A stretch of 64,000 bases of DNA from Flavobacteriales bacterium (GTDB lineage: Bacteria; Bacteroidota; Bacteroidia; Flavobacteriales_D; Crocinitomicaceae), in NCBI GenBank assembly GCA_947500875.1, contig CANMUN010000002.1:1-64000 (forward strand), given 5' to 3'. The position numbers were made by a program, and so were the translations under genes. The stretch's first letter is position 1; each line of letters begins with the position of its first letter. The notes beneath the pieces were generated by a model. The model was not told where the DNA came from. It searched no databases and saw only the letters and a program-made list of their open reading frames with translations. This document shows, piece after piece, positions 5,254 through 64,000 of this stretch.

Positions 5254-6972
5254 ATGCGATTACTCGTCTTAACGATTGTATTTTTTGGGGTTTCCTTCGT
5301 TTTTGCCCAATCGGATGTGTTCGAAACCGATGGAAAAGGAAACCGAGATATCGAGCGCAGTAGCAGGATCCCGTCTTCCCCGAAAATCGTCGATAACATT
5401 CCTGTAAACAAAGTCACCAGCCGGCCCCTTTTAGAATTAAACCAACGCATTGTTGTTCGTACCGATACCATCGAAGCTGCAACCATTGAAACAGAGCAAA
5501 TGCTGAATAAATTCTATCCTTTTTACGTCAAGGCAGGAATGGGTTCGGCTTTAATGCCCTTTGCGGAATTGTATGTGAATTCCACAAGGTCTCGCAACAG
5601 CTATTACGGGTTTCACGCGAAACATATGAGCTTCTTTGGAACCATTAAAGACCGAGAAAATCAACGCTATGCCCCTGCAGGATTCGATAAAACCTCCTTG
5701 CTTGGGACTTTTGAAACCTTTCAGCGTTCATATTCGCTTTTGGGTCAACTGCACTACCTCAACCATGGCTTTCATTATTACGGTTTAACTCAAGAAAATG
5801 CTAATGCCGATTCTTTGGCGCAACGCTATCAAACCATTGATGCAAAATTGGTCCTTGATACCCATCCTATGGATACCGCTCGTTTCAACGTTCGTACCAC
5901 CGCAAACTTTCGTTACACCTCCACCGGAGCACCTTATCTTGACAGTTTAAAGGACTGGAAAGCCAAGGAACAAGCATTCAATTTGAACATGTTGGGCTAT
6001 TATACAACAGAGAAAAACACCTTTCATGGCTTATTGGGTCTTAGGTATAACGGTTATGCTTACGGTATTTTGGATTCCATTTTAATGCTGTCGGACAGCG
6101 GTTTACTTCGTAAAAACCCGATTTTTGATGTTCAACCGGGTGTAAAAAGCTATTTACTCAACCAGCGACTGTTCGTTGACGCAGGTTTTGCCGTGAGCAT
6201 AGATGGAGGCAACTCAACAAAAGCTTATTTTTTTCCGAAGGTTTATGCTCAATATGCTTTTGCTCAAAATTCTTTCGTTCCTTTTTTGAGCATTGGAGGA
6301 CAGATTACACAAAATTCACTCTATTCCTTGTACACCTTGAATCCCTATATCAACCCGAACGTGTTGATTCAAAATGAAATTAATCCTTACGACATTCAAT
6401 TGGGTTTTAAAGCAAAGATGGGCAAGAATTTCCATGGTGGTCTTAGCGCAAACTTTTTAAAAGTCAACAACCGCGCATTTTTTGTTACGGACACCTTGAT
6501 GTCTTCGGGTAATCGATTCGATTTAGTTTACGACTCCTTGAATCACACGAAACTTGAAGGAAAACTGACCTATCAGTCCGGATCCAAACTCAACGTCAAT
6601 CTTATTGCCCGCTACCATAGTTACGAGATGTTGAACGAGGCAAGAGCTTGGAATTTACCCAACGTTGAGGTTATACTCGGAGGAGCATATAATTTATTCG
6701 ACAAACTTTTGGTTAAAGCAGACTTAACTTTGGCGATGAATCGATTCGCAAAAGTAGAGGCTTCAACGCCTAATGCCCTTTTCGAAAACAACCAACACTT
6801 CATTAATCTTGGGAGCATAATTGATGCCAATTTAGGTATTGAATACCGCTACAACAAGCGTTTATCGGGCTTCTTACAAATAACGAACCTTGCGGCTCAA
6901 CGTTATCTTACGTTTTATAATTATCCGGTAATTCCTATCCAAGTTTTAGCTGGAATCACGTGTAAATTTTAG
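5254..6972 (+). CDS. Outer-membrane beta-barrel protein, TonB-receptor-like
   Basis: 572 residues from the ATG at 5254. The frame is open from 5233, but the later Met gives a clean signal peptide (MRLLVLTIVFFGVSFVFAQ) one base after the TPR stop. The mature protein has alternating polar/hydrophobic strands rich in Y, F, N and G, and ends with an aromatic residue (ITCKF), as outer-membrane barrels do. I see no obvious plug domain or TonB box, so it may be a barrel-only relative of TonB-dependent receptors. It is co-transcribed with the TPR protein. Cargo and role are unknown. Confidence 0.68.
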   Translation: MRLLVLTIVFFGVSFVFAQSDVFETDGKGNRDIERSSRIPSSPKIVDNIPVNKVTSRPLLELNQRIVVRTDTIEAATIETEQMLNKFYPFYVKAGMGSALMPFAELYVNSTRSRNSYYGFHAKHMSFFGTIKDRENQRYAPAGFDKTSLLGTFETFQRSYSLLGQLHYLNHGFHYYGLTQENANADSLAQRYQTIDAKLVLDTHPMDTARFNVRTTANFRYTSTGAPYLDSLKDWKAKEQAFNLNMLGYYTTEKNTFHGLLGLRYNGYAYGILDSILMLSDSGLLRKNPIFDVQPGVKSYLLNQRLFVDAGFAVSIDGGNSTKAYFFPKVYAQYAFAQNSFVPFLSIGGQITQNSLYSLYTLNPYINPNVLIQNEINPYDIQLGFKAKMGKNFHGGLSANFLKVNNRAFFVTDTLMSSGNRFDLVYDSLNHTKLEGKLTYQSGSKLNVNLIARYHSYEMLNEARAWNLPNVEVILGGAYNLFDKLLVKADLTLAMNRFAKVEASTPNALFENNQHFINLGSIIDANLGIEYRYNKRLSGFLQITNLAAQRYLTFYNYPVIPIQVLAGITCKF

Positions 6973-6987
6973 CTTTTATTATTAGGC

Positions 6988-7008
6988 TTCATGTTGAAAT
7001 AACATGAA
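6988..7008. repeat. Inverted repeat over the amidase promoter
   Basis: TTCATGTT, a 5-base spacer, then AACATGAA: a perfect 8-base inverted repeat. It overlaps the -33 TTG (6994-6996) of the amidase promoter. No T-run follows on the + strand, so it is a poor terminator for the barrel gene. An operator is possible. Confidence 0.5.
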
Positions 7009-7021
7009 AAAAATACTTTTG
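6994..7021 (+). promoter_or_regulatory. Promoter of the T9SS amidase gene
   Basis: TTG at 6994-6996, a 17-base spacer, then TACTTTTG at 7014-7021. This is the best full match to the Bacteroidetes TTG/TAnnTTTG promoter in the window. The frame of the downstream gene is open from a GTG at 7021, inside the -7 box, so that GTG cannot be the start. The start at 7057 leaves a leader of roughly 30 bases. Confidence 0.7.
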
Positions 7022-7056
7022 TGGTGTCTATTTCGTTAAAAGCCAAAAACTTAACC

Positions 7057-10011
7057 ATGAAATTCCCGCTTTTTATTTTACTGCTTGTAACCACAACCCT
7101 TTTTGCTCAAACTTCGTTCACGTCACTCTACCTACAATACCCTTCTGTGCCGAAAGGTTTCGTTGAGGCATATGCATTCACCCATACCCGAATGCACGCG
7201 TTGGCGAAAAGTGAACCCTCATCATGCTCCAACATTCCCCAACCCTTCGGGATTCTTGGATTATTCGATGAAGGAAATCACTATTTTATCGAGAATGCGA
7301 AGAAAATAAGCCAGCTTTCGGGAATAAGCGTTCAAACCATGAAAGCTTCCGAAGAACAACAACTCGCTGCCTTTGCCAAAACCTGTGAAATCCTCATACA
7401 ACATCCGATTAACCAAGAACTATCCGAGGGAGAAACAATCTATCAATTGATGGCGCAATTGAGCGAAATCCCGAGATCCAACGCAGGAAACCTCTACGCT
7501 TTTGAATCTTCCGTTTTTGCCATATTTCAATTTTTACAAGACGAAGAAATGGCGGCTAACTACCATTTTCCGCAACGCAGTTTCGACTTAAAACACATCT
7601 TTGGGGATGAAAATTACGAGGTTTTAAGCTCAAGCCACATTCAACTTCAACCCAATCGCGTGGAATCCCAGAACGGCGCGGTCTACAACTCAAGCATTGC
7701 TTCCATAAAGTCTGCCGATTATGGCCCTGCACTATGGAACCCTGCCCCCAATTGCAATTTCAGCTCTCGTAACGGAACGGCGATTTCGGCCGTTACCATC
7801 CATACCGTTCAGGGATCGTATTCCGGAGCCATCTCCTGGGGTTTAAATTGCAATGCCCAGGTTTCGTATCACTACGTAATTCGCAGTTCTGATGGACAAG
7901 TGACCCAAATGGTCCTCGAATCCAATAAAGCTTGGCATGTTGGTACGGCTAATCCCTACACCATTGGAATTGAACACGAGGGTTACGTTTCGAACGCAGC
8001 GTGGTACACCAACGCCATGTACCAATCTTCGGCAAATTTGGTTAAAGAAATCACCCAGAGCGGTTATGGAATCAACCCTTTAAGGACCTATGACGGTACG
8101 AGCAGTTCAAGCGGTCAAGTCCTTGGAGACTGCCTTAAAATCAAAGGACATCAACATTACGCAAACCAAACCCACACCGATCCTGGAATTAACTGGAATT
8201 GGCCCAAGTACTACCTGCTCATTAACAACAACTACACTCCTACCGTGATTACCAACGCCTCAGGAAACCTCTATGATTCTGGCGGAGCCAACGGAAACTA
8301 CGGCAACGACGAACGAAAAGTTTGGGTCATTCAACCCAGCAATGCGGCGTCCGTTCAGCTTACGTTTAGTGCGTTTAATACACAGACAGGAAAGGACAAA
8401 GTGTTAATTTACGATGGGGCTTCCACGAATGCTCCATTGATCGGAAGTTATAGCGGAACAACCCTTCCTCCGGTCATTCAATCGACGAATCCTGCGCTCA
8501 CCCTTGAATTTCGTTCCGATTGCGGTACAACCCAAAGCGGTTGGTCCGCCTCGTATACCTCCAATGCGCAACTCAACGATGTTACCCCACCGATAAGTTC
8601 CGCATTGCTTCCATTGGCTTGGCATACGCAAGACTTTACGGCAGGACTGGTTTCCACCGACCCCGCTTCAGGTGTTGCGTATTCCTTCTATAATGTATCC
8701 TCTCGTTCCAATGCCAACAACCCCAAGTATTCCAACAAAAGTTATGGTTTCTTTCGGGAAGAATTTTCCGGAACCGCTTTTCAATGGACCAATCAAACCG
8801 GCAGTTTTCAAATTGGGAATGGCATTTTTAGCATGAATGACGCTTCACAAAACAACTCCAACGCTTATGCACAACTCACTCAAAATCAACAAGAAACCTA
8901 TTTATATACTTGGAGGCAAAGGATTACTTCTACCAACGCCAATCAAAGAGCAGGCATGCATTTCTTTTGCAGCGACCCCACCCTTGCCAACCGGGGAAAT
9001 TCCTATTTTGTTTTCTTCCGCGAAGAAACGGATAAAGTACAAATTTACGAAGTCAACAACGATGTTTTCACGATGCAATACGAGGCGCCGATCACCCTTG
9101 TTCCCAACCAATGGTATACGGTAAAAGTCATCTATTCCCACAGTTCTGGTAACATTGTGGTTTACGTGAACAACGACTTAGTCGCCACATGGCATGATAA
9201 TTCTCCCCTTGCTCAAGGAAATTCCATTTCTCTTCGTTCAGGAGCTTGTACGGTTGATTTTGACAATATTTTTGTCTATCAATCGCATGCTAATCAAGAA
9301 CTGGTGAGTGTTGGTCCCAATAAAGAAATTGAACACCAAAGCGATCAACAACAACCTTCCGGGGTCATTCGAATGATTGCTATGGATTCTTCCAGTAATT
9401 GGTCAAACGCCAGCGAACAAACCGTTCAAGTGGACTGGACTGCTCCGGTTTTTACCGCCTGCAACGATGGTCCAAGCAATGATATCGATAGTTTTTACAC
9501 TGCCGCTTTGAAAACCAATTGGTCGTCCAATGATCCACATTCCGGTGTATCTTACTATGAACTATCCCTTGGTACCTCCGTTGGAAACACTTCTGTCTTG
9601 AATTGGATGAACATGAGTACAAGCACGAGCTACACGTACAACTTGACAAGTCCTATTAATGGCACCGTTTATTTCGGAAATGTCAAATCCACCAACACCG
9701 CGGGATTAACGGGAACGCAAAGCACCGACGGTCAGAAATACCTGTCACAAGCCAACATGTTGTTACCCGAATCACCCAACCCACTAGCACAAATTTTGGT
9801 TTATCCTAATCCCAACAACGGTCAACAACTCCATTTGACAAACCTTCCTTTTCCTGTCGGGATTCAACTCTACGACGCGCAAGGAAAACTCATACTCAGC
9901 AAAGAACCTGGACTTCACAATCTTCTTGATACAAACATAGCCCAAGGAGTTTACAACTTACAACTTTCAGGAGAAGGAGCTCAATTGAATTTGCGTTTAG
10001 TGGTTCAATAA
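7057..10011 (+). CDS. T9SS-exported N-acetylmuramoyl-L-alanine amidase with CUB domain
   Basis: 984 residues from the ATG at 7057, which starts a signal peptide (MKFPLFILLLVTTTLFAQ). The middle holds an Amidase_2/PGRP domain with zinc-ligand candidates H249 (TIHT), H365 or its neighbour in KGHQHY, and H373 (QTHTDPG). It should cut the bond between MurNAc and L-Ala in peptidoglycan. A CUB-like domain follows (about 395-510), then a concanavalin/LamG-like region. The C-terminus is a type A T9SS sorting domain (VYPNPNNGQ... to LVVQ), so the enzyme is secreted or cell-surface bound. Likely uses are attack on other bacteria, scavenging or wall turnover. It overlaps the convergent dehydrogenase gene by 7 bases. 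Confidence 0.88.
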   Translation: MKFPLFILLLVTTTLFAQTSFTSLYLQYPSVPKGFVEAYAFTHTRMHALAKSEPSSCSNIPQPFGILGLFDEGNHYFIENAKKISQLSGISVQTMKASEEQQLAAFAKTCEILIQHPINQELSEGETIYQLMAQLSEIPRSNAGNLYAFESSVFAIFQFLQDEEMAANYHFPQRSFDLKHIFGDENYEVLSSSHIQLQPNRVESQNGAVYNSSIASIKSADYGPALWNPAPNCNFSSRNGTAISAVTIHTVQGSYSGAISWGLNCNAQVSYHYVIRSSDGQVTQMVLESNKAWHVGTANPYTIGIEHEGYVSNAAWYTNAMYQSSANLVKEITQSGYGINPLRTYDGTSSSSGQVLGDCLKIKGHQHYANQTHTDPGINWNWPKYYLLINNNYTPTVITNASGNLYDSGGANGNYGNDERKVWVIQPSNAASVQLTFSAFNTQTGKDKVLIYDGASTNAPLIGSYSGTTLPPVIQSTNPALTLEFRSDCGTTQSGWSASYTSNAQLNDVTPPISSALLPLAWHTQDFTAGLVSTDPASGVAYSFYNVSSRSNANNPKYSNKSYGFFREEFSGTAFQWTNQTGSFQIGNGIFSMNDASQNNSNAYAQLTQNQQETYLYTWRQRITSTNANQRAGMHFFCSDPTLANRGNSYFVFFREETDKVQIYEVNNDVFTMQYEAPITLVPNQWYTVKVIYSHSSGNIVVYVNNDLVATWHDNSPLAQGNSISLRSGACTVDFDNIFVYQSHANQELVSVGPNKEIEHQSDQQQPSGVIRMIAMDSSSNWSNASEQTVQVDWTAPVFTACNDGPSNDIDSFYTAALKTNWSSNDPHSGVSYYELSLGTSVGNTSVLNWMNMSTSTSYTYNLTSPINGTVYFGNVKSTNTAGLTGTQSTDGQKYLSQANMLLPESPNPLAQILVYPNPNNGQQLHLTNLPFPVGIQLYDAQGKLILSKEPGLHNLLDTNIAQGVYNLQLSGEGAQLNLRLVVQ

Positions 10012-13799: not shown

Positions 13800-16700
13800 T
13801 TATTGAACCATATTAAAATAACTTTCAGCCTTACTTCTAAAATACTGATTAAAAGAGGGATCCACAACATTGATCATTTCAACCTGTTTTACCGACTGCT
13901 TCTTGTACTCTTTTAATTCAATAAGGTTACTTGTATTTTGATCTTTTCCAGATTTGGATTCCCGCTTTTCCTCATAACCGCGTTCCATTATAGCTTTTTC
14001 GCTTTCTAATAACCTCGTTAGAATGTCTTGCTGGCGTTTAACCATGTCCTTATCAATCCGTTGATTGATGAGTTCGCGCTCCTGTTCTTCCAATTCTTTT
14101 AATAAAGGATTCAACTGATTGCCGCTGCCTTTACCGTCTTTGTTTAATTCATTTTTTAACTGTTCCAACTTTTGACGAATTGCGGTTTGCTCTGCTGCCA
14201 TTTTTGCAATTTCTTTGTTCCCCAACCCTAACATGTTCATGCCTTGAGTACCCGGTTTCATTCCAGGATTGTTTCCCTCTTTATCTCCCGGTTTATCTCC
14301 ACCAGGACTTTGACCCTTTTGCATCCTCTCCAATTGCTTCTTAAGCATTTCTTTCATATCACCCGTCGACATACTTCCCGGCTTCGGCTTACCACTTCCA
14401 GGTTTACTACAACTACCGTTACTAGGCATGCTGCTTTGAGCTTGTGCCTGCATTTGCTGCAATGCCTCATTTAACAGCAGTGCAAGATTATTATAAGCCG
14501 TCATTACCTGCTGCTCATTGCTGACTATATCTTGCTTTCTATGGTCATCAATGGCCTCGATGGCTGATTCTTGGGAAAACGCTATGTCGTTCAACTCTTT
14601 ATCAATAAAGCTTGCTACTTTCGGCTGACGCTTTGCCAAGGCTAAAAGGCTGTCACGAACCGTTCCTGTCTCTCGATTGATCCGTAGTTGTTCTCTGCCC
14701 AATTTCCGGTATTTGGGGTCGGAAAAGTTTACCCGGTTAAACTCTTCGATTAAAGACTCCTGATCAAAACTCAGCACCATCAAACTCTCCAAAATCTGCC
14801 GTAGCATTTCCATATCCTCCTCGGCTTGCTGTTGGTTACTCGCTTGCTGTTGCTGGTTTAACTGCTCTGCCAACTGCTCCATTTGATCACCGGCTTGCTT
14901 CTGAGCATCTTTTGCTTTACTTTTTTTATTATTTCCTAAATCTTCTTTTGCGTTATTCAGTTGATTATCAATAGATTGCTCTAACTCCTTGGTATTCTCT
15001 AGATTAAGCGGATCCATGAGTTCTTTGTTCAGTTCTTTGGTGTTTTCCAATTTTTTTTGAATTGAATCGAATTGCTGATTAATCTCATCTTGTTTCTTCA
15101 ATAATTCTTCCTTGCTTAACGACTTTTCATCCATCTCCTTGCGCAGTTCTTCTTGAAGTTTAGCCGTTTCTTTCAACTCTTTTTCGATATCGTCGATGCG
15201 TTCATTGACTTGCAACTTCTTTAACATTTCCAAGGTCCTATCCAATTGCTTGGTCATATTCTCCGAAGATTGGTCGAGTTTGTCAACCTCCTTCTTTAAC
15301 TCCATGTCAGCGCGGTCATTGAACATTTTTTCAATTTCTTCCAAAAGCTTTTTTAATTCATCGTCCATGACCTCCTCCAACAATTTTTGAATCATCTCTT
15401 GTTTTTCTAACAATTCTTTATCAATTTCAGAGAGTTGATTCTTATCTTGAGTAGACTGCTCCAACTGCTCCTTTATCCTTTCCAATTCGCTACTTAACGC
15501 TTTCTGTTCTTCTTTTAATTGCTGAATTTGTTGTTTATTATTCCAGTCTTTGGTTTGACTGTTGTTTAAATCTTTTTTCAATTTATCTACGTTGCGTTCA
15601 AAAGCCTTGGTCTTTTCAATCACCTTTTCGATATCCTTAGAAGTTTTTGCTTGATCTGCTTCGCGTTCCTTATTCAACTCTTGTAAATCAGGCAATGCGT
15701 ATTGTCCAATAAAACTCCTCGTAGATTTATGGCCGTTCACCCCATCGTTGTCGGAAACCGTAAAGAAATACTCTATTTTATCTTCCAACTGAACTGATTC
15801 ACGTCGAAAATCAACGGCAAAAGTAAAAGCACTCTTAGATCCAGGAGTAAACCCTACAGGCAGTACGGCAGACTTTACTTCTTTTCCTTTGCGAATAATT
15901 TTATACATAAACTTCAACGAGGAAAGACCGTAATCATCGCTGATTTGACCGTTGAAATACTTTACTCCTTCTTGAATCGAATCCGATTGTTCATTCAGCA
16001 GTATTTGTGGGTAAGTATCCTTTACAACATTAATCCTAAACTTTGTTGAATCCAACCTATTGTTAAATTTATTGATTAAAAACAAGGCTAAATCCCCTGA
16101 ATTACGGACCTTATGGGCCAACTTAAAATGTTCACTGTTAAAACGATGCGTATTGCCAAAGCATTTAATTTTCAAAGCTTTTACATTCGTTGCACCACCG
16201 CTCCAGGTTAATTGCGTACCTTCAGGAACCGTGATATCCGCAGCGTTCTGAATGATCTCGTTCTTTTTACTTAAATAACTCGGATAAATGGCCTGCAGAG
16301 TAATTTTTCCAAGGACGCTTTTTCCTGTTACGTGGTATTCAAAGGATTTACTTTGATAACCGTTCGCTTCAAAGTAGAACTTACCTGAAGTATTGACTTT
16401 AATGAGGGTAAAATCAAAACGGTTCTTTAAAGAACGGTTCATTAAAAATTTACCTTGATCGGTAACTAAATACACTTTATCCGGTATTCGTTCTCCCTTC
16501 AAAGAGACACTCACAGGAATATCAGTACCTTCTTCCACTGTATATTCACCCGCTTTCACCGAAAAATAAAACGGTAAAAACTCCTTATCAAACCTCACTA
16601 TTCGATAACTTCCTTGAGTTAAAATTGCCGGAATAAAAACCAGCAATAAAATCAAGGTAAACAATGAAGGTAATACGTATTTCAAGTACTTTCGATTCAC

Positions 16701-60476: not shown

Positions 60477-61772
60477 ATGAAGTACCACCTCATTGACCGC
60501 GAGCTCTTTGTGCGAAACCGCGCGAAGTTTACGGCCTCCATGGAGAAAAACACCTTGGCGGTGTTCAATTCCAACGACATTTATCCCATTTCTTCAGACG
60601 CTACGATGCCTTTTCAGCAACATCGCGATATTTTTTACTTATCCGGCGTAGATCAAGAAGAGTCTATTTTGGTCTTGTTTCCAACGGCCAGCAATCCCGC
60701 CCATCGGGAGGTCTTGTTTTTACGAGAAACCAATGAAACCATTGCCATTTGGGAGGGAGAGAAACTAACCAAGGCCAAGGCCTTTGAAACTTCGGGAATA
60801 AAAACCGTGTATTGGTTGAATCAATTCCCAACCATCTTTAAGCAATTGATGGCCGAAGCACAGGGAATTTATTTAAATACGAATGAACACCTGCGAGCCA
60901 ACACGGAAGTTGAAACCCGAGAAGACCGATTTATAAAGCAAGTCAAAACGGATTATCCGGCCCATCAGGTGTATAAATCGGCGCCGATTTTGCATAAATC
61001 CCGATCGATTAAGGAAGTCGTAGAACTGGCCTTAATGCAAACGGCTTGCGATATTACCGAGAAAGGGTTTCGCCGCGTATTGGATTTTGTAAAACCAGGC
61101 GTTTGGGAATATGAAATTGAAGCGGAATTTTCCCATGAATTTCTAAGAAACCGTTCCCAAGGCTTTGCCTACACGCCCATTATTGCTTCGGGCAAAAATG
61201 CCTGTGTGTTGCATTACATTGAAAACAACCAGTCCTGCCAAGATGGGGATGTAATCCTTTTAGATGTGGGGGCTGAATACGCCAATTATTCCTCGGATTT
61301 AACGCGCTGTATTCCTGTGAACGGAAGGTTTACCCCCCGTCAAAAAGCAATGTACAACGCGGTGCTTCATGTGAAAAAAGAAGCCACGAAATTATTAGTT
61401 CCAGGCACCCTCATGGCGGAATACCACAAGCAGGTGGGCACCCTCATGGAAGAGCAGTTAGTGAACTTGGGATTGATTTCCATTGAGGACATCAAAAATC
61501 AAGATGCTGCATGGCCGGCTTACAAGAAATATTTCATGCATGGAACGTCACATTTCTTGGGTTTAGATACTCATGATGTGGGCCTTTGGCACGAACCGAT
61601 TCAAGCCAACATGGTGTTTACCGTGGAACCGGGGATTTATATTCCCGAAGAAGGGTTGGGCATTCGTTTGGAAGACGATGTGGTGGTGCAGGCGAGCGGC
61701 GAGCCGTTCAATTTAATGCGCAACATTCCCTTAGAGGCAGAGGAAATCGAGGAGTTGATGAACCGTGGCTAA
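60477..61772 (+). CDS. pepP: Xaa-Pro aminopeptidase (M24B)
   Basis: 431 residues with an N-terminal AMP_N domain (FQQHRDIFYLSGV) and a creatinase-fold catalytic domain. The two-metal site is visible: Asp in LLDVGAEYANYSSDLTR, His in HGTSHFLGLDTHD, and two Glu in FTVEPGIY and GIRLEDDV. It removes N-terminal residues before proline in cytoplasmic peptides. Its stop overlaps the next gene, which starts with GTG. Confidence 0.95.
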   Translation: MKYHLIDRELFVRNRAKFTASMEKNTLAVFNSNDIYPISSDATMPFQQHRDIFYLSGVDQEESILVLFPTASNPAHREVLFLRETNETIAIWEGEKLTKAKAFETSGIKTVYWLNQFPTIFKQLMAEAQGIYLNTNEHLRANTEVETREDRFIKQVKTDYPAHQVYKSAPILHKSRSIKEVVELALMQTACDITEKGFRRVLDFVKPGVWEYEIEAEFSHEFLRNRSQGFAYTPIIASGKNACVLHYIENNQSCQDGDVILLDVGAEYANYSSDLTRCIPVNGRFTPRQKAMYNAVLHVKKEATKLLVPGTLMAEYHKQVGTLMEEQLVNLGLISIEDIKNQDAAWPAYKKYFMHGTSHFLGLDTHDVGLWHEPIQANMVFTVEPGIYIPEEGLGIRLEDDVVVQASGEPFNLMRNIPLEAEEIEELMNRG

Positions 61773-62535
61773 GCGGCTGCATTATCAAGTATTCGGCGAA
61801 GGACCCCTCACAGTTTACCTGCACGGTTATCTGGAGTCTTCCACCATGTGGGAACCGCTAAAGTTGAATGAAATTCCAGGAACCAAGGTGCTTATAGACC
61901 TTCCGGGTCATGGGAAATCTCCCTTGTTCGATCATAGGGAAGTTCCATCCATTAAATTCATGGCCGATGAGGTGGCACGGGTTATTTCGGAAATTAATCC
62001 AACCCAATACCGCGTCGTAGGGCACAGCATGGGCGGCTATGTGGCCTTGGAGTTGGCGGCCAATACCCCGAAAGACATCATGAAGCCGAGCCATATCACC
62101 TTGTTAAACTCCAATTGTTGGTCCGACAGTGAAGCCAAGCAAGCAGATCGTCTGCGGGTAGCCCGAATTGCGTTTACCGGCAAGGAGCTTTTCATTAATG
62201 AAGCCATTCCTAACTTATTTGCACGTCCAGCGGATTTTCAAAAGGAAATTGTAGCCATGAAAGAGGAGGCGAAGGCGATGACCTCGGAAGCGATAGCCTA
62301 TGCGGCCTTGGCCATGCGCGCACGCACGGATTACACGTTTTGGGTATTGGAAAACCCGAGCAAGGTTCGGTTCATACACGGAGCACTCGACCGCTTGGTG
62401 AGCGTTGAGGAGTTGCACCAACGTCTATTGCCCGCAGCCGACCAAGCGGCACCAGAAATCATCATCCTCTCGAACGCTGGCCACATGGCACACCAGGAAG
62501 CCACGGAAGAAGTGGTGAGGGGAGTGTTTGGGTAG
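61765..62535 (+). CDS. Alpha/beta hydrolase
   Basis: 256 residues starting with GTG at 61765, overlapping the pepP stop by 8 bases; the next Met (residue 28) would remove the first strand. The nucleophile Ser is in GHSMGGYVALEL, the oxyanion region near LHGYLESSTMW, and acid and His are in GALDRLVSVEE and NAGHMAHQEA. Substrate unknown; the family includes esterases, dehalogenases and thioesterases. Last gene before the accessory Fic/Xre unit. Confidence 0.87.
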   Translation: MAKRLHYQVFGEGPLTVYLHGYLESSTMWEPLKLNEIPGTKVLIDLPGHGKSPLFDHREVPSIKFMADEVARVISEINPTQYRVVGHSMGGYVALELAANTPKDIMKPSHITLLNSNCWSDSEAKQADRLRVARIAFTGKELFINEAIPNLFARPADFQKEIVAMKEEAKAMTSEAIAYAALAMRARTDYTFWVLENPSKVRFIHGALDRLVSVEELHQRLLPAADQAAPEIIILSNAGHMAHQEATEEVVRGVFG

Positions 62536-62545
62536 GCGATAACTA

Positions 62546-62593
62546 GGGTTTATTCCCGGGTGCGGGTTTAACCCGCACCCGGGGTGCTTCAAA
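62546..62593. repeat. Left boundary repeat with strong hairpin
   Basis: A 48-base element beginning GGGTTTAT. Inside it is a near-perfect palindrome: arm CCCGGGTGCGGGTT (62555-62568), one base, then the complementary arm AACCCGCACCCGGG (62570-62583), ending GTGCTTCAAA. The related element at 63862-63911 lies on the other side of the Fic/Xre pair in the same orientation. Confidence 0.8.
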
Positions 62594-62601
62594 GCTATCT
62601 A

Positions 62602-62618
62602 GGATTCCATCGGAATCC
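62602..62618. repeat. Small hairpin in the left flank
   Basis: GGATTCC, loop ATC, GGAATCC: a perfect 7-base stem. Second of three hairpins packed between the hydrolase and the Fic gene. Confidence 0.7.
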
Positions 62619-62652
62619 CACAAGTTTGTTTCATGGTGTAAAAATGAATGCA

Positions 62653-62669
62653 CGACCCCGTGGGGGTCG
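62653..62669. repeat. Small GC-rich hairpin in the left flank
   Basis: CGACCCC, loop GTG, GGGGTCG: a perfect 7-base stem. Third of three hairpins in a row, as in REP-like units. No T-run follows on either strand, so it is not a standard terminator. Confidence 0.7.
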
Positions 62670-62693
62670 AATAGGCTGTGTTCGCGGGCTTGT

Positions 62694-63287
62694 TTACGAG
62701 CGCGCAAAGCGAATGAGTGGAGAATAATCTCCAAGATCGGCCATTTTCAAAGCCTTCAAATATGCACTTCGTTGTTCGGAAGATTCAACCAAGCCATGGT
62801 GTCCCCAAGAAAACGTTTCAAGTCCAAAGACATGTGCCGCCATCAAATCCGCCATAATTCGAGAATGCCTCCCGTTGCCATTGGGAAAGCAATGTATGGA
62901 TACTAAACGATGCTTAAATCGTAGTGTAATTTCTTCAGGGGGATAAGTCTCATGGGTTATCCAAAAGGTGGTGTCATCGATGAGCCGCCTAAGTTCTATG
63001 GGAATTTTAACCCAGTCCACGCCAATATTGGTTTGCGTTTTCCGGAATTGACCCGCCCAGCGCCATACGATACCGAACATGCGTTGATGAAGCTGTACCA
63101 TGAAATCTTTGGTAAGTACGTCCGTGATTTTTCGTTTTGATTGAATCCACACTAATGCTTCATTGATATTCGCTTGCTCAAATTCATTCAACTGCTTTTG
63201 TGTAGCAATGGTTTTGATTTTCAACCCATCGATCTGATCGGGATCCAACGGCGTTTGACCATCTTGGTAGTTAAGAATTAATCCCAT
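62694..63287 (-). CDS. Mobile mystery protein B, Fic domain
   Basis: 197 residues of a Fic-fold protein of the mobile mystery B type. The Fic motif is HCFPNGNGRHSR (H132 to R143). The usual acidic residue that binds magnesium (D/E at position five) is Asn136. As I recall, this Asn is shared by the mystery-B family. Fic enzymes transfer AMP or related groups from nucleotides to protein hydroxyls; this one could act differently. It always pairs with protein A, and here the start overlaps A by 10 bases. The pair resembles a toxin-antitoxin module, unproven. Its stop lies 24 bases from the GC-rich hairpin at 62653-62669. Confidence 0.88.
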   Translation of the reverse strand: MGLILNYQDGQTPLDPDQIDGLKIKTIATQKQLNEFEQANINEALVWIQSKRKITDVLTKDFMVQLHQRMFGIVWRWAGQFRKTQTNIGVDWVKIPIELRRLIDDTTFWITHETYPPEEITLRFKHRLVSIHCFPNGNGRHSRIMADLMAAHVFGLETFSWGHHGLVESSEQRSAYLKALKMADLGDYSPLIRFARS

Positions 63288-63742
63288 AAGCTTTTTGGCA
63301 TGTTGTCAGCGAGTTCCCTTGTCAGTCTTTCTAACTCTTGGGTTTGGCTCTCTTGATTAGTCTCTTGACCCTCTAATCGCATGGTTTGATTCGATTGGAT
63401 TAAAATTTCCTGCGCTTTCTTTTTTGCTTGTTGTGTAATGGTGTTTTTTATGGAACCACTCTTGGGTTTAAAATAATATACCAGTTCCATATCCATTGCA
63501 TTTGCCGCTTTTTTTAAGGTAGCTAATGTAATTGCCTCGGTTTGTTCCCTTTTTTCAAAATTGGTTAGCGCACTTGCCGATACTCCAACGCGATGTGCAA
63601 GCTGCCTTAAGGACATACCCAAAGCCAATCGAGTATATTGAATCCATCCAACGGATAATTTAATCGAATGATTTCCCGTGTTGTAGGACTGGATTAATTC
63701 ATCCAGGTGCTTTTGGGTAAGGGTTCTTTTAAAATAATTCAT
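63278..63742 (-). CDS. Mobile mystery protein A, Xre-type regulator
   Basis: 154 residues. A helix-turn-helix of the Xre/Cro type (about 35-90) has MSLRQLAHRVGVSASALTNFEK, then a mostly helical C-terminal arm rich in Gln and Glu. Mobile mystery A is known as the invariable partner of the Fic protein B, and the two spread together among unrelated bacteria. It starts with ATG at 63742. A palindrome over its promoter (63748-63782) suggests that it represses its own operon. Confidence 0.88.
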   Translation of the reverse strand: MNYFKRTLTQKHLDELIQSYNTGNHSIKLSVGWIQYTRLALGMSLRQLAHRVGVSASALTNFEKREQTEAITLATLKKAANAMDMELVYYFKPKSGSIKNTITQQAKKKAQEILIQSNQTMRLEGQETNQESQTQELERLTRELADNMPKSLWD

Positions 63743-63747
63743 AACTT

Positions 63748-63782
63748 AAAAGTTTATAAATACAGCACAAATATAAACCTTT
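63748..63782 (-). promoter_or_regulatory. Promoter and candidate operator of the mystery A-B operon
   Basis: AAAAGTTTATA (63748-63758), 13 bases, then TATAAACCTTT (63772-63782): arms that match at 10 of 11 positions in inverted order. The reverse-strand -7 box TATATTTG (63768-63775) lies inside it, 25 bases before the ATG. A repressor bound here would block transcription, as for many Xre regulators. Confidence 0.6.
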
Positions 63783-63861
63783 AAATTAAATTTAGAAATA
63801 ATAATATTAACTTGTGGATTAAAAAAAACAAAAAAGCACTTGCTGGTTATTCGTGTCTTGT

Positions 63862-63911
63862 GGGTTTATCCCTGACTGCGGGTTTAAACCCTTACCCAGG
63901 GATGCTTTAAA
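63862..63911. repeat. Right boundary repeat, related to the left one
   Basis: 50 bases beginning GGGTTTAT and ending TGCTTTAAA, sharing block order with 62546-62593: GGGTTTAT, TGCGGGTTTAA, ACCC, GGG, TGCTT, AAA. Outer stem ATCCCTG/CAGGGAT and core palindrome GGGTTTAAACCC. Same orientation as the left copy. The stem is more degenerate than on the left. Confidence 0.75.
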
Positions 63912-64000
63912 ACAAATAAAAAACAACGCTTGCTCCGATGTCGCAACCTTTCTTTTTTGCTTTTTATTTACATGGGATTATCCACCTTCGCTTCGCTGAG
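63912..64000. other. Window edge, no gene seen
   Basis: The last 89 bases hold no reading frame that I can support. They contain T-rich sequence and end within CTTCGCTTCGCTGAG. Any gene on the right would begin outside the window. Confidence 0.5.

Follow-up and report, generated by a model that had tools for sequence, protein, structure and literature searches.

In a 64,000-nucleotide stretch of a Flavobacteriales genome (GCA_947500875.1, contig CANMUN010000002.1, positions 1 to 64,000; hereafter the window), the mobile mystery gene pair A-B is most probably an acquired unit of ~1.17 kb that lies inside an older, resident array of REP palindromes, and the REPs on either side of it are not its ends. 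An earlier note on this DNA had proposed a unit of ~1.37 kb mobilised in trans by a RAYT transposase; the DNA shared with a sister species measures 1.17 kb and excludes both REPs. We suggest instead that an A-B operon of ~1.17 kb with its own upstream region would have been acquired horizontally and would have landed in the intergenic palindrome array that separates a hydrolase gene from tRNA-Ser/kup. Both hairpins are resident members of this array (RAYT-type REPs also present in A-B-less relatives), bracketing A-B because the insertion fell between modules, beside the right REP. The hairpin-rich site may have acted as a recombination hotspot, and A-B may have come in through recombination at modules or between them, with no dedicated transposase involved. 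Matches of B-like proteins to 232 plasmid records, 99 of which are predicted to be conjugative, make delivery by a plasmid and subsequent recombination into the repeat-rich site a simple possibility; B had zero matches in a phage collection.

The gene pair and its surroundings

The window's pair (mob_myst; Xre/Fic), with A directly upstream of B, was recognised by requiring both proteins to exceed their curated NCBIfam cut-offs (that is, 127.8 bits for A against TIGR02612, cut-off 122.6, and 247.3 bits, E 1e-73, for B against TIGR02613, cut-off 124.4), and the two reading frames overlap by 10 bases. In its predicted products, an Xre regulator (A) and a Fic protein (B), the pair resembles a toxin-antitoxin operon. 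The features of the locus are as follows (G000 is the window's genome, and other G numbers are genus genomes compared with it).

61765-62535, + strand: alpha/beta hydrolase gene, left neighbour (Pfam Abhydrolase_6)
62546-62598, + strand: left hairpin element, composed of a half REP (GGGTTTAT), a full REP palindrome and a GTGCTTCAAAGC tail
62602-62618, + strand: GGATTCCATCGGAATCC, a small palindrome belonging to the resident array, also in A-B-less G006 and G037
62653-62669, + strand: CGACCCCGTGGGGGTCG, a small palindrome belonging to the resident array, with a REP directly after it in A-B-less relatives
62692-63860, - strand: A-B unit shared with G043 (1.17 kb, 92% over 1174 aligned columns)
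62694-63287, - strand: mobile mystery protein B (TIGR02613; Fic family; motif HCFPNGNGRHSR)
63278-63742, - strand: mobile mystery protein A (TIGR02612; Xre/Cro-type HTH)
63743-63860, - strand: AT-rich stretch upstream of A, inside the shared unit and conserved with G043 to its end; probably promoter/operator
63862-63911, + strand: right hairpin element (imperfect REP), which follows on from the GACCCC module once the empty site is reconstructed
63912-64000, + strand: more modules of the resident array, which continues to tRNA-Ser(gga) outside the window

Coordinates and profiles agree with the earlier description of a pair enclosed by two related elements of ~50 bases in direct orientation. 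The elements are 83% alike over 29 ungapped nt and 80% over ~50 nt (BLAST), and both have a GGGTTTAT foot, a palindrome around GGGTTTAA and a TGCTT(C/T)AAA tail; the left one contains a perfect 14-bp stem (62555-62583) and the right one an 81% palindrome (63868-63903). With up to two mismatches, the hairpin core occurs seven times in the window against 1.3 expected, a count reached by none of 100 shuffles. The intergenic array is a mosaic in which a variable hairpin head is followed by a GCTTCAAAACAATCAAAAGC... tail, and on the contig right of the window tRNA-Ser(gga) lies at 64159-64249 and kup at 64373. The hydrolase gene on the left is present in 77 of the 86 genus genomes.

Empty sites and the extent of the unit

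The order of hydrolase gene, tRNA-Ser(gga) and kup is kept in sister species without A-B, and five such loci were compared (G036, G115, G006, G024 and G037). A REP stands at this locus in three of them (G006, G024 and G037), the element in G024 being the same as the window's left one, and G036 and G115 have other array modules in the intergenic region. An empty site reconstructed by joining 62536-62691 of G000 to 63861-63915 aligns unbroken to G006 and G037 and also to the sequence on the right side of A-B in G043; the right REP thus occupies its resident position, immediately behind the GACCCC hairpin. The insertion point is between these two, 94 bases inward of the left REP, and where the left REP stands G006 has another hairpin (ACCGATACC..GGTATCGGT). 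The hairpins are thus present independently of A-B and, on these alignments, are not its ends. This contradicts the explanation of mobility offered by the earlier note, given that the empty sites of relatives carry the REP and do not end at the repeats, the insertion boundary being elsewhere. The other observation that the earlier note named as refuting it was made as well: the repeats are dispersed over the genome, and 80 other A-B loci lack them.

The boundaries of the unit come from one species pair, G000/G043. Of the sister species only G043 has A-B in the corresponding position, flanked by the array on one side and by tRNA-Ser/kup on the other, with different junctions. The common DNA breaks off abruptly on both sides, at the stop codon of B and 118 bp before the start of A, leaving both REPs outside; a gap of 1 nt separates it from the right REP, a closeness that could be more than chance. 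Identity at fourfold sites between the two genomes is 93% for B and 80% for A, against 40% for kup and 62% for the hydrolase gene (49-129 sites each), and because A and B are far more alike than these neighbours, the comparison argues for transfer or exchange of A-B after the two species split. As the same intergenic locus is occupied in both genomes but with different junctions, one old insertion followed by repeat turnover and later gene exchange is possible. Across the genus, A-B exceeds the cut-offs in 5 of 61 genomes, and these pairs take three places in the A-B tree (a quick tree with many open forks). Sporadic distribution and transfer between lineages together indicate that A-B is mobile, and on this point the earlier note stands.

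A distant A-B pair occurs at two different loci in G031 and G038, whose shared DNA runs only from B's stop to ~80 bp upstream of A, apart from a separate 50-base match left of B; no common end sequence was seen. Several similar AAGG.TATA..C boxes, possibly operator sites, lie upstream of A in G031 (L155 3958-4040) and G038 (L027 2546-2628), and the shared DNA stops just past them. Left of A-B in G043 (L148, G043:C114, 379-780) are a small HTH gene and a CCGATACC..GGTATCG hairpin, of which a degenerate copy lies right of A-B in the same genome; a hairpin of this kind is intact in A-B-less G006.

A Campbell-type entry, in which homologous recombination between a resident module and the single module on an A-B-bearing circle would give one module in the empty site and two around the insert, is unlikely, although it has several points in its favour. 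One GGGTTTAT-REP-GCTTCAAA element is found in the empty site of G024 and two in G000, both of the latter with the half-REP foot and the tail, and direct repeats are somewhat commoner around A-B outside attC-type loci (9/60 against 4/103 for other genes, p=0.016). The junction, however, falls between the GACCCC hairpin and the right REP rather than within a duplicated module, no REP lies in G043 from A-B to the left contig end, and the two copies are just ~80% alike. Direct repeats were also considered as a general hallmark of A-B and rejected: a shifted-segment control had inflated the excess, and gene-bounded controls shrank it (15/76 against 13/151). At three loci with direct repeats around A-B (L206 4602-4836, L218 4728-4910 and L230 4616-4669), the right copy seems to take in the beginning of the following gene, as though a second, diverged version of that beginning had come with the insert.

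Cassette arrays around other A-B pairs

We surveyed the best 80 A-B loci from 570 relatives, and A precedes B at all 80. At up to 17 of these loci an attC-like site comes after A-B, with TAA(A/T)GCCAACA or a variant at or just past B's stop, and at two (L161 and L177, Winogradskyella) A-B forms a two-gene cassette in an integron-like array in which a ~133-base site follows nearly every gene or A-B pair. The sites fold like attC, with R and L stems and unpaired spacers; in their alignment 91.5% of cells are paired and the covariation score exceeds those of all 500 shuffles; kinship of sequences can mimic structure in this way, but sliding the partners abolishes the signal. Compared with the R' of the site before it, the outer R'' bases of a site agree at 4-7 of 7 positions (at 6-7 in nine of ten cases), and compared with the site's own R' at 0-6 of 7; agreement with the previous site is what cassette insertion at G/TT leaves. 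Both cassette boundaries (an 8-10-base match in fixed geometry) surround A-B at 9 of the 80 loci. The sites follow genes on one strand at L161, L177, L166, L289 and L290 (Winogradskyella and Polaribacter), and a covariance model found at least 57, 69, 30 and 33 sites among the matches listed for four cassette genomes.

In these four genomes, a recombinase gene (384-405 codons in the two that were read through) precedes an attC-like site by ~0.4-1.6 kb and has the same orientation as the site, and at L289 and L290 the XerA-like recombinase stands at the head of the array, also in the same orientation. The candidates reach 190-213 bits against TIGR02249 (cut-off 265), skipping profile positions 180-240, and score best, above TIGR02249, with NF040815 (XerA). 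The recombinase is XerA-like and lacks the stretch of the TIGR02249 profile (positions 180-240) containing the IntI-specific part; we regard the Winogradskyella and Polaribacter arrays as a putative integron-like cassette system. As the A-B arrays lie on other contigs or at other places than the recombinase in the genomes seen, the link between array and recombinase rests on the shared site family. A literature search returned no attC or tyrosine recombinase in Flavobacteriaceae and no integrons in Winogradskyella, and with IntegronFinder 2.0 a complete integron was reported within Bacteroidetes proper only for Salinibacter (PMC9024848).

The attC-type A-B pairs fall into one branch (SH-aLRT 98), mixed with pairs that have no recognisable site, and the window's pair lies outside it. 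No attC-like site was found at the A-B pairs of G000, G043, G031 and G038, nor any across the 86 genus genomes but one in G026, and XerA-like recombinases at six loci of the genus have no adjoining cassette-type repeat array. Two weak model matches in the window (6950-7068 and 15986-16112; E 0.15 and 0.49) are probably due to chance. It is very unlikely that the window's A-B came as an integron-like cassette whose attC site was lost later: although pairs in the Flavobacteriaceae-rich branch are cassettes of attC-type arrays, and the sequence after B's stop in G043, TAAACCAACATCGATACC, falls one base short of the consensus for cassettes (TAAAGCCAACA), the position outside that branch, the site-free A-B loci of these four genomes and the single site in 86 genomes all speak against it. 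A wider reading would make the mobility of A-B in Bacteroidota a matter of hairpin-based recombination, with cassettes of an integron-like system run by a XerA-type recombinase lacking the IntI-specific domain in one branch, and with palindromic arrays next to a tRNA gene serving repeatedly as landing sites for such units in the window's lineage; we hold this to be rather improbable.

The REP family and known mobile systems

The palindrome of the two hairpins (consensus GGGTGCGGGTTTAAACCCGCACCC) recurs at several sites in G000 besides the window copies (contigs C92, C65, C69, C7 and C42) and is matched in 8 of 71 genus genomes, with 13 BLAST matches in G037 and 16 in G001, both strands counted; these two genomes have no A-B pair above the cut-offs despite their palindrome copies. 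As an extragenic palindrome of 20-40 bp in several copies per genome, it has the form of a REP. At one of their ends REP elements carry a conserved tag of four nucleotides (GTAG or CGTC; PMC3733652), and no constant tag was visible by eye beside the window-type palindromes. These REPs break assemblies: contigs C7 (69960-70099) and C69 (9560-9592) of G000 both end at the same REP, and in G024 the end of C25 and the start of C36 lie at one REP.

The Y1_Tnp genes of G000 and four sister species (L280-L288) form three groups, each gene bracketed by its group's own palindromic repeat: CGACTCC..GGAGTCG in group 1 (G006, G024 and G043), GCCCTGAAGGGGC in group 2 (G006, G024, G043 and G000) and the window-type palindrome in group 3 (G024:C2, with four copies in 2.1 kb around the gene, and G102:C5, with two to three). 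The proteins are 90-97% alike inside groups 1 and 2 and ~40% between groups, and those of group 3 are short (124 and 103 aa). Because window-type palindromes bracket Y1_Tnp genes in G024 and G102, the window's hairpins are very probably REPs of a RAYT; the REP likeness drawn by the earlier note is thereby borne out, and their role as unit ends falls with the empty sites and the limits of the shared DNA. The same two genomes overturned a contrary view, taken from the different REP of the sole Y1_Tnp in G000, by which the hairpins would have no link to any RAYT. The RAYT with the same repeat that the earlier note would have looked for was not found in the 93% complete assembly of G000, where the sole Y1_Tnp detected has the GCCCTGAAGGGGC REP, and none was detected in REP-rich G037. 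Given the short group-3 proteins and a REP-rich genome without Y1_Tnp, this REP/RAYT family may be dying out.

The ends of IS200/IS605 elements carry two hairpins in the same orientation. It is very unlikely, and already largely refuted, that the REPs in this manner close off on its left and right a 1.37-kb non-autonomous unit which a RAYT/IS200-like transposase would excise and insert in single-stranded form: the hairpin pair in one orientation and its RAYT-associated family fit, but REPs stand at the A-B-less locus, the shared DNA stops 94 bases before the left REP, the repeats are dispersed and the window's hairpin lies near A-B at 0 of the 80 other loci, G000 yielded no cognate RAYT and both candidates elsewhere are short, and RAYT mobilisation of A-B was rejected on the empty sites, the unit boundaries, the hairpin-free loci and G037 without Y1_Tnp. 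One proposed vehicle is thus removed for a gene pair of unexplained mobility, and ~1.17 kb is the likely unit size at the window's locus.

Compared with known systems, the window's proteins are no different from other TIGR02612/TIGR02613 pairs, with the same gene order, 10-base overlap, scores above both cut-offs, sporadic distribution and plasmid matches; what differs is the setting, a REP array beside tRNA-Ser. With IS200/IS605 elements the locus shares hairpins in the same orientation on either side of the gene unit, but the unit has no transposase and does not end at the hairpins. The repeats resemble REP/RAYT systems (TnpA_REP; PMC2817692, PMC8266576) in being short extragenic palindromes scattered over the genome and, in sister species, placed around Y1 transposase genes; they differ in their few copies per genome, in the cognate RAYT not found in G000 and perhaps in the tag, as no constant tetranucleotide was seen. 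Integron cassettes and attC arrays (PMC8618304, PMC9024848) have features that were not seen at the window's own locus; the Winogradskyella A-B pairs resemble them in their ratio of one cassette to each attC-like site, in R boxes complementary to the preceding site and in the recombinase gene at the head of such arrays. For part of the A-B family this offers a testable vehicle, a putative integron-like cassette system in Flavobacteriaceae that threshold-based integron searches may overlook, and whose unusual recombinase would set it apart from integrons in being XerA-like, without the IntI-specific region, and encoded in the same direction as the cassettes.
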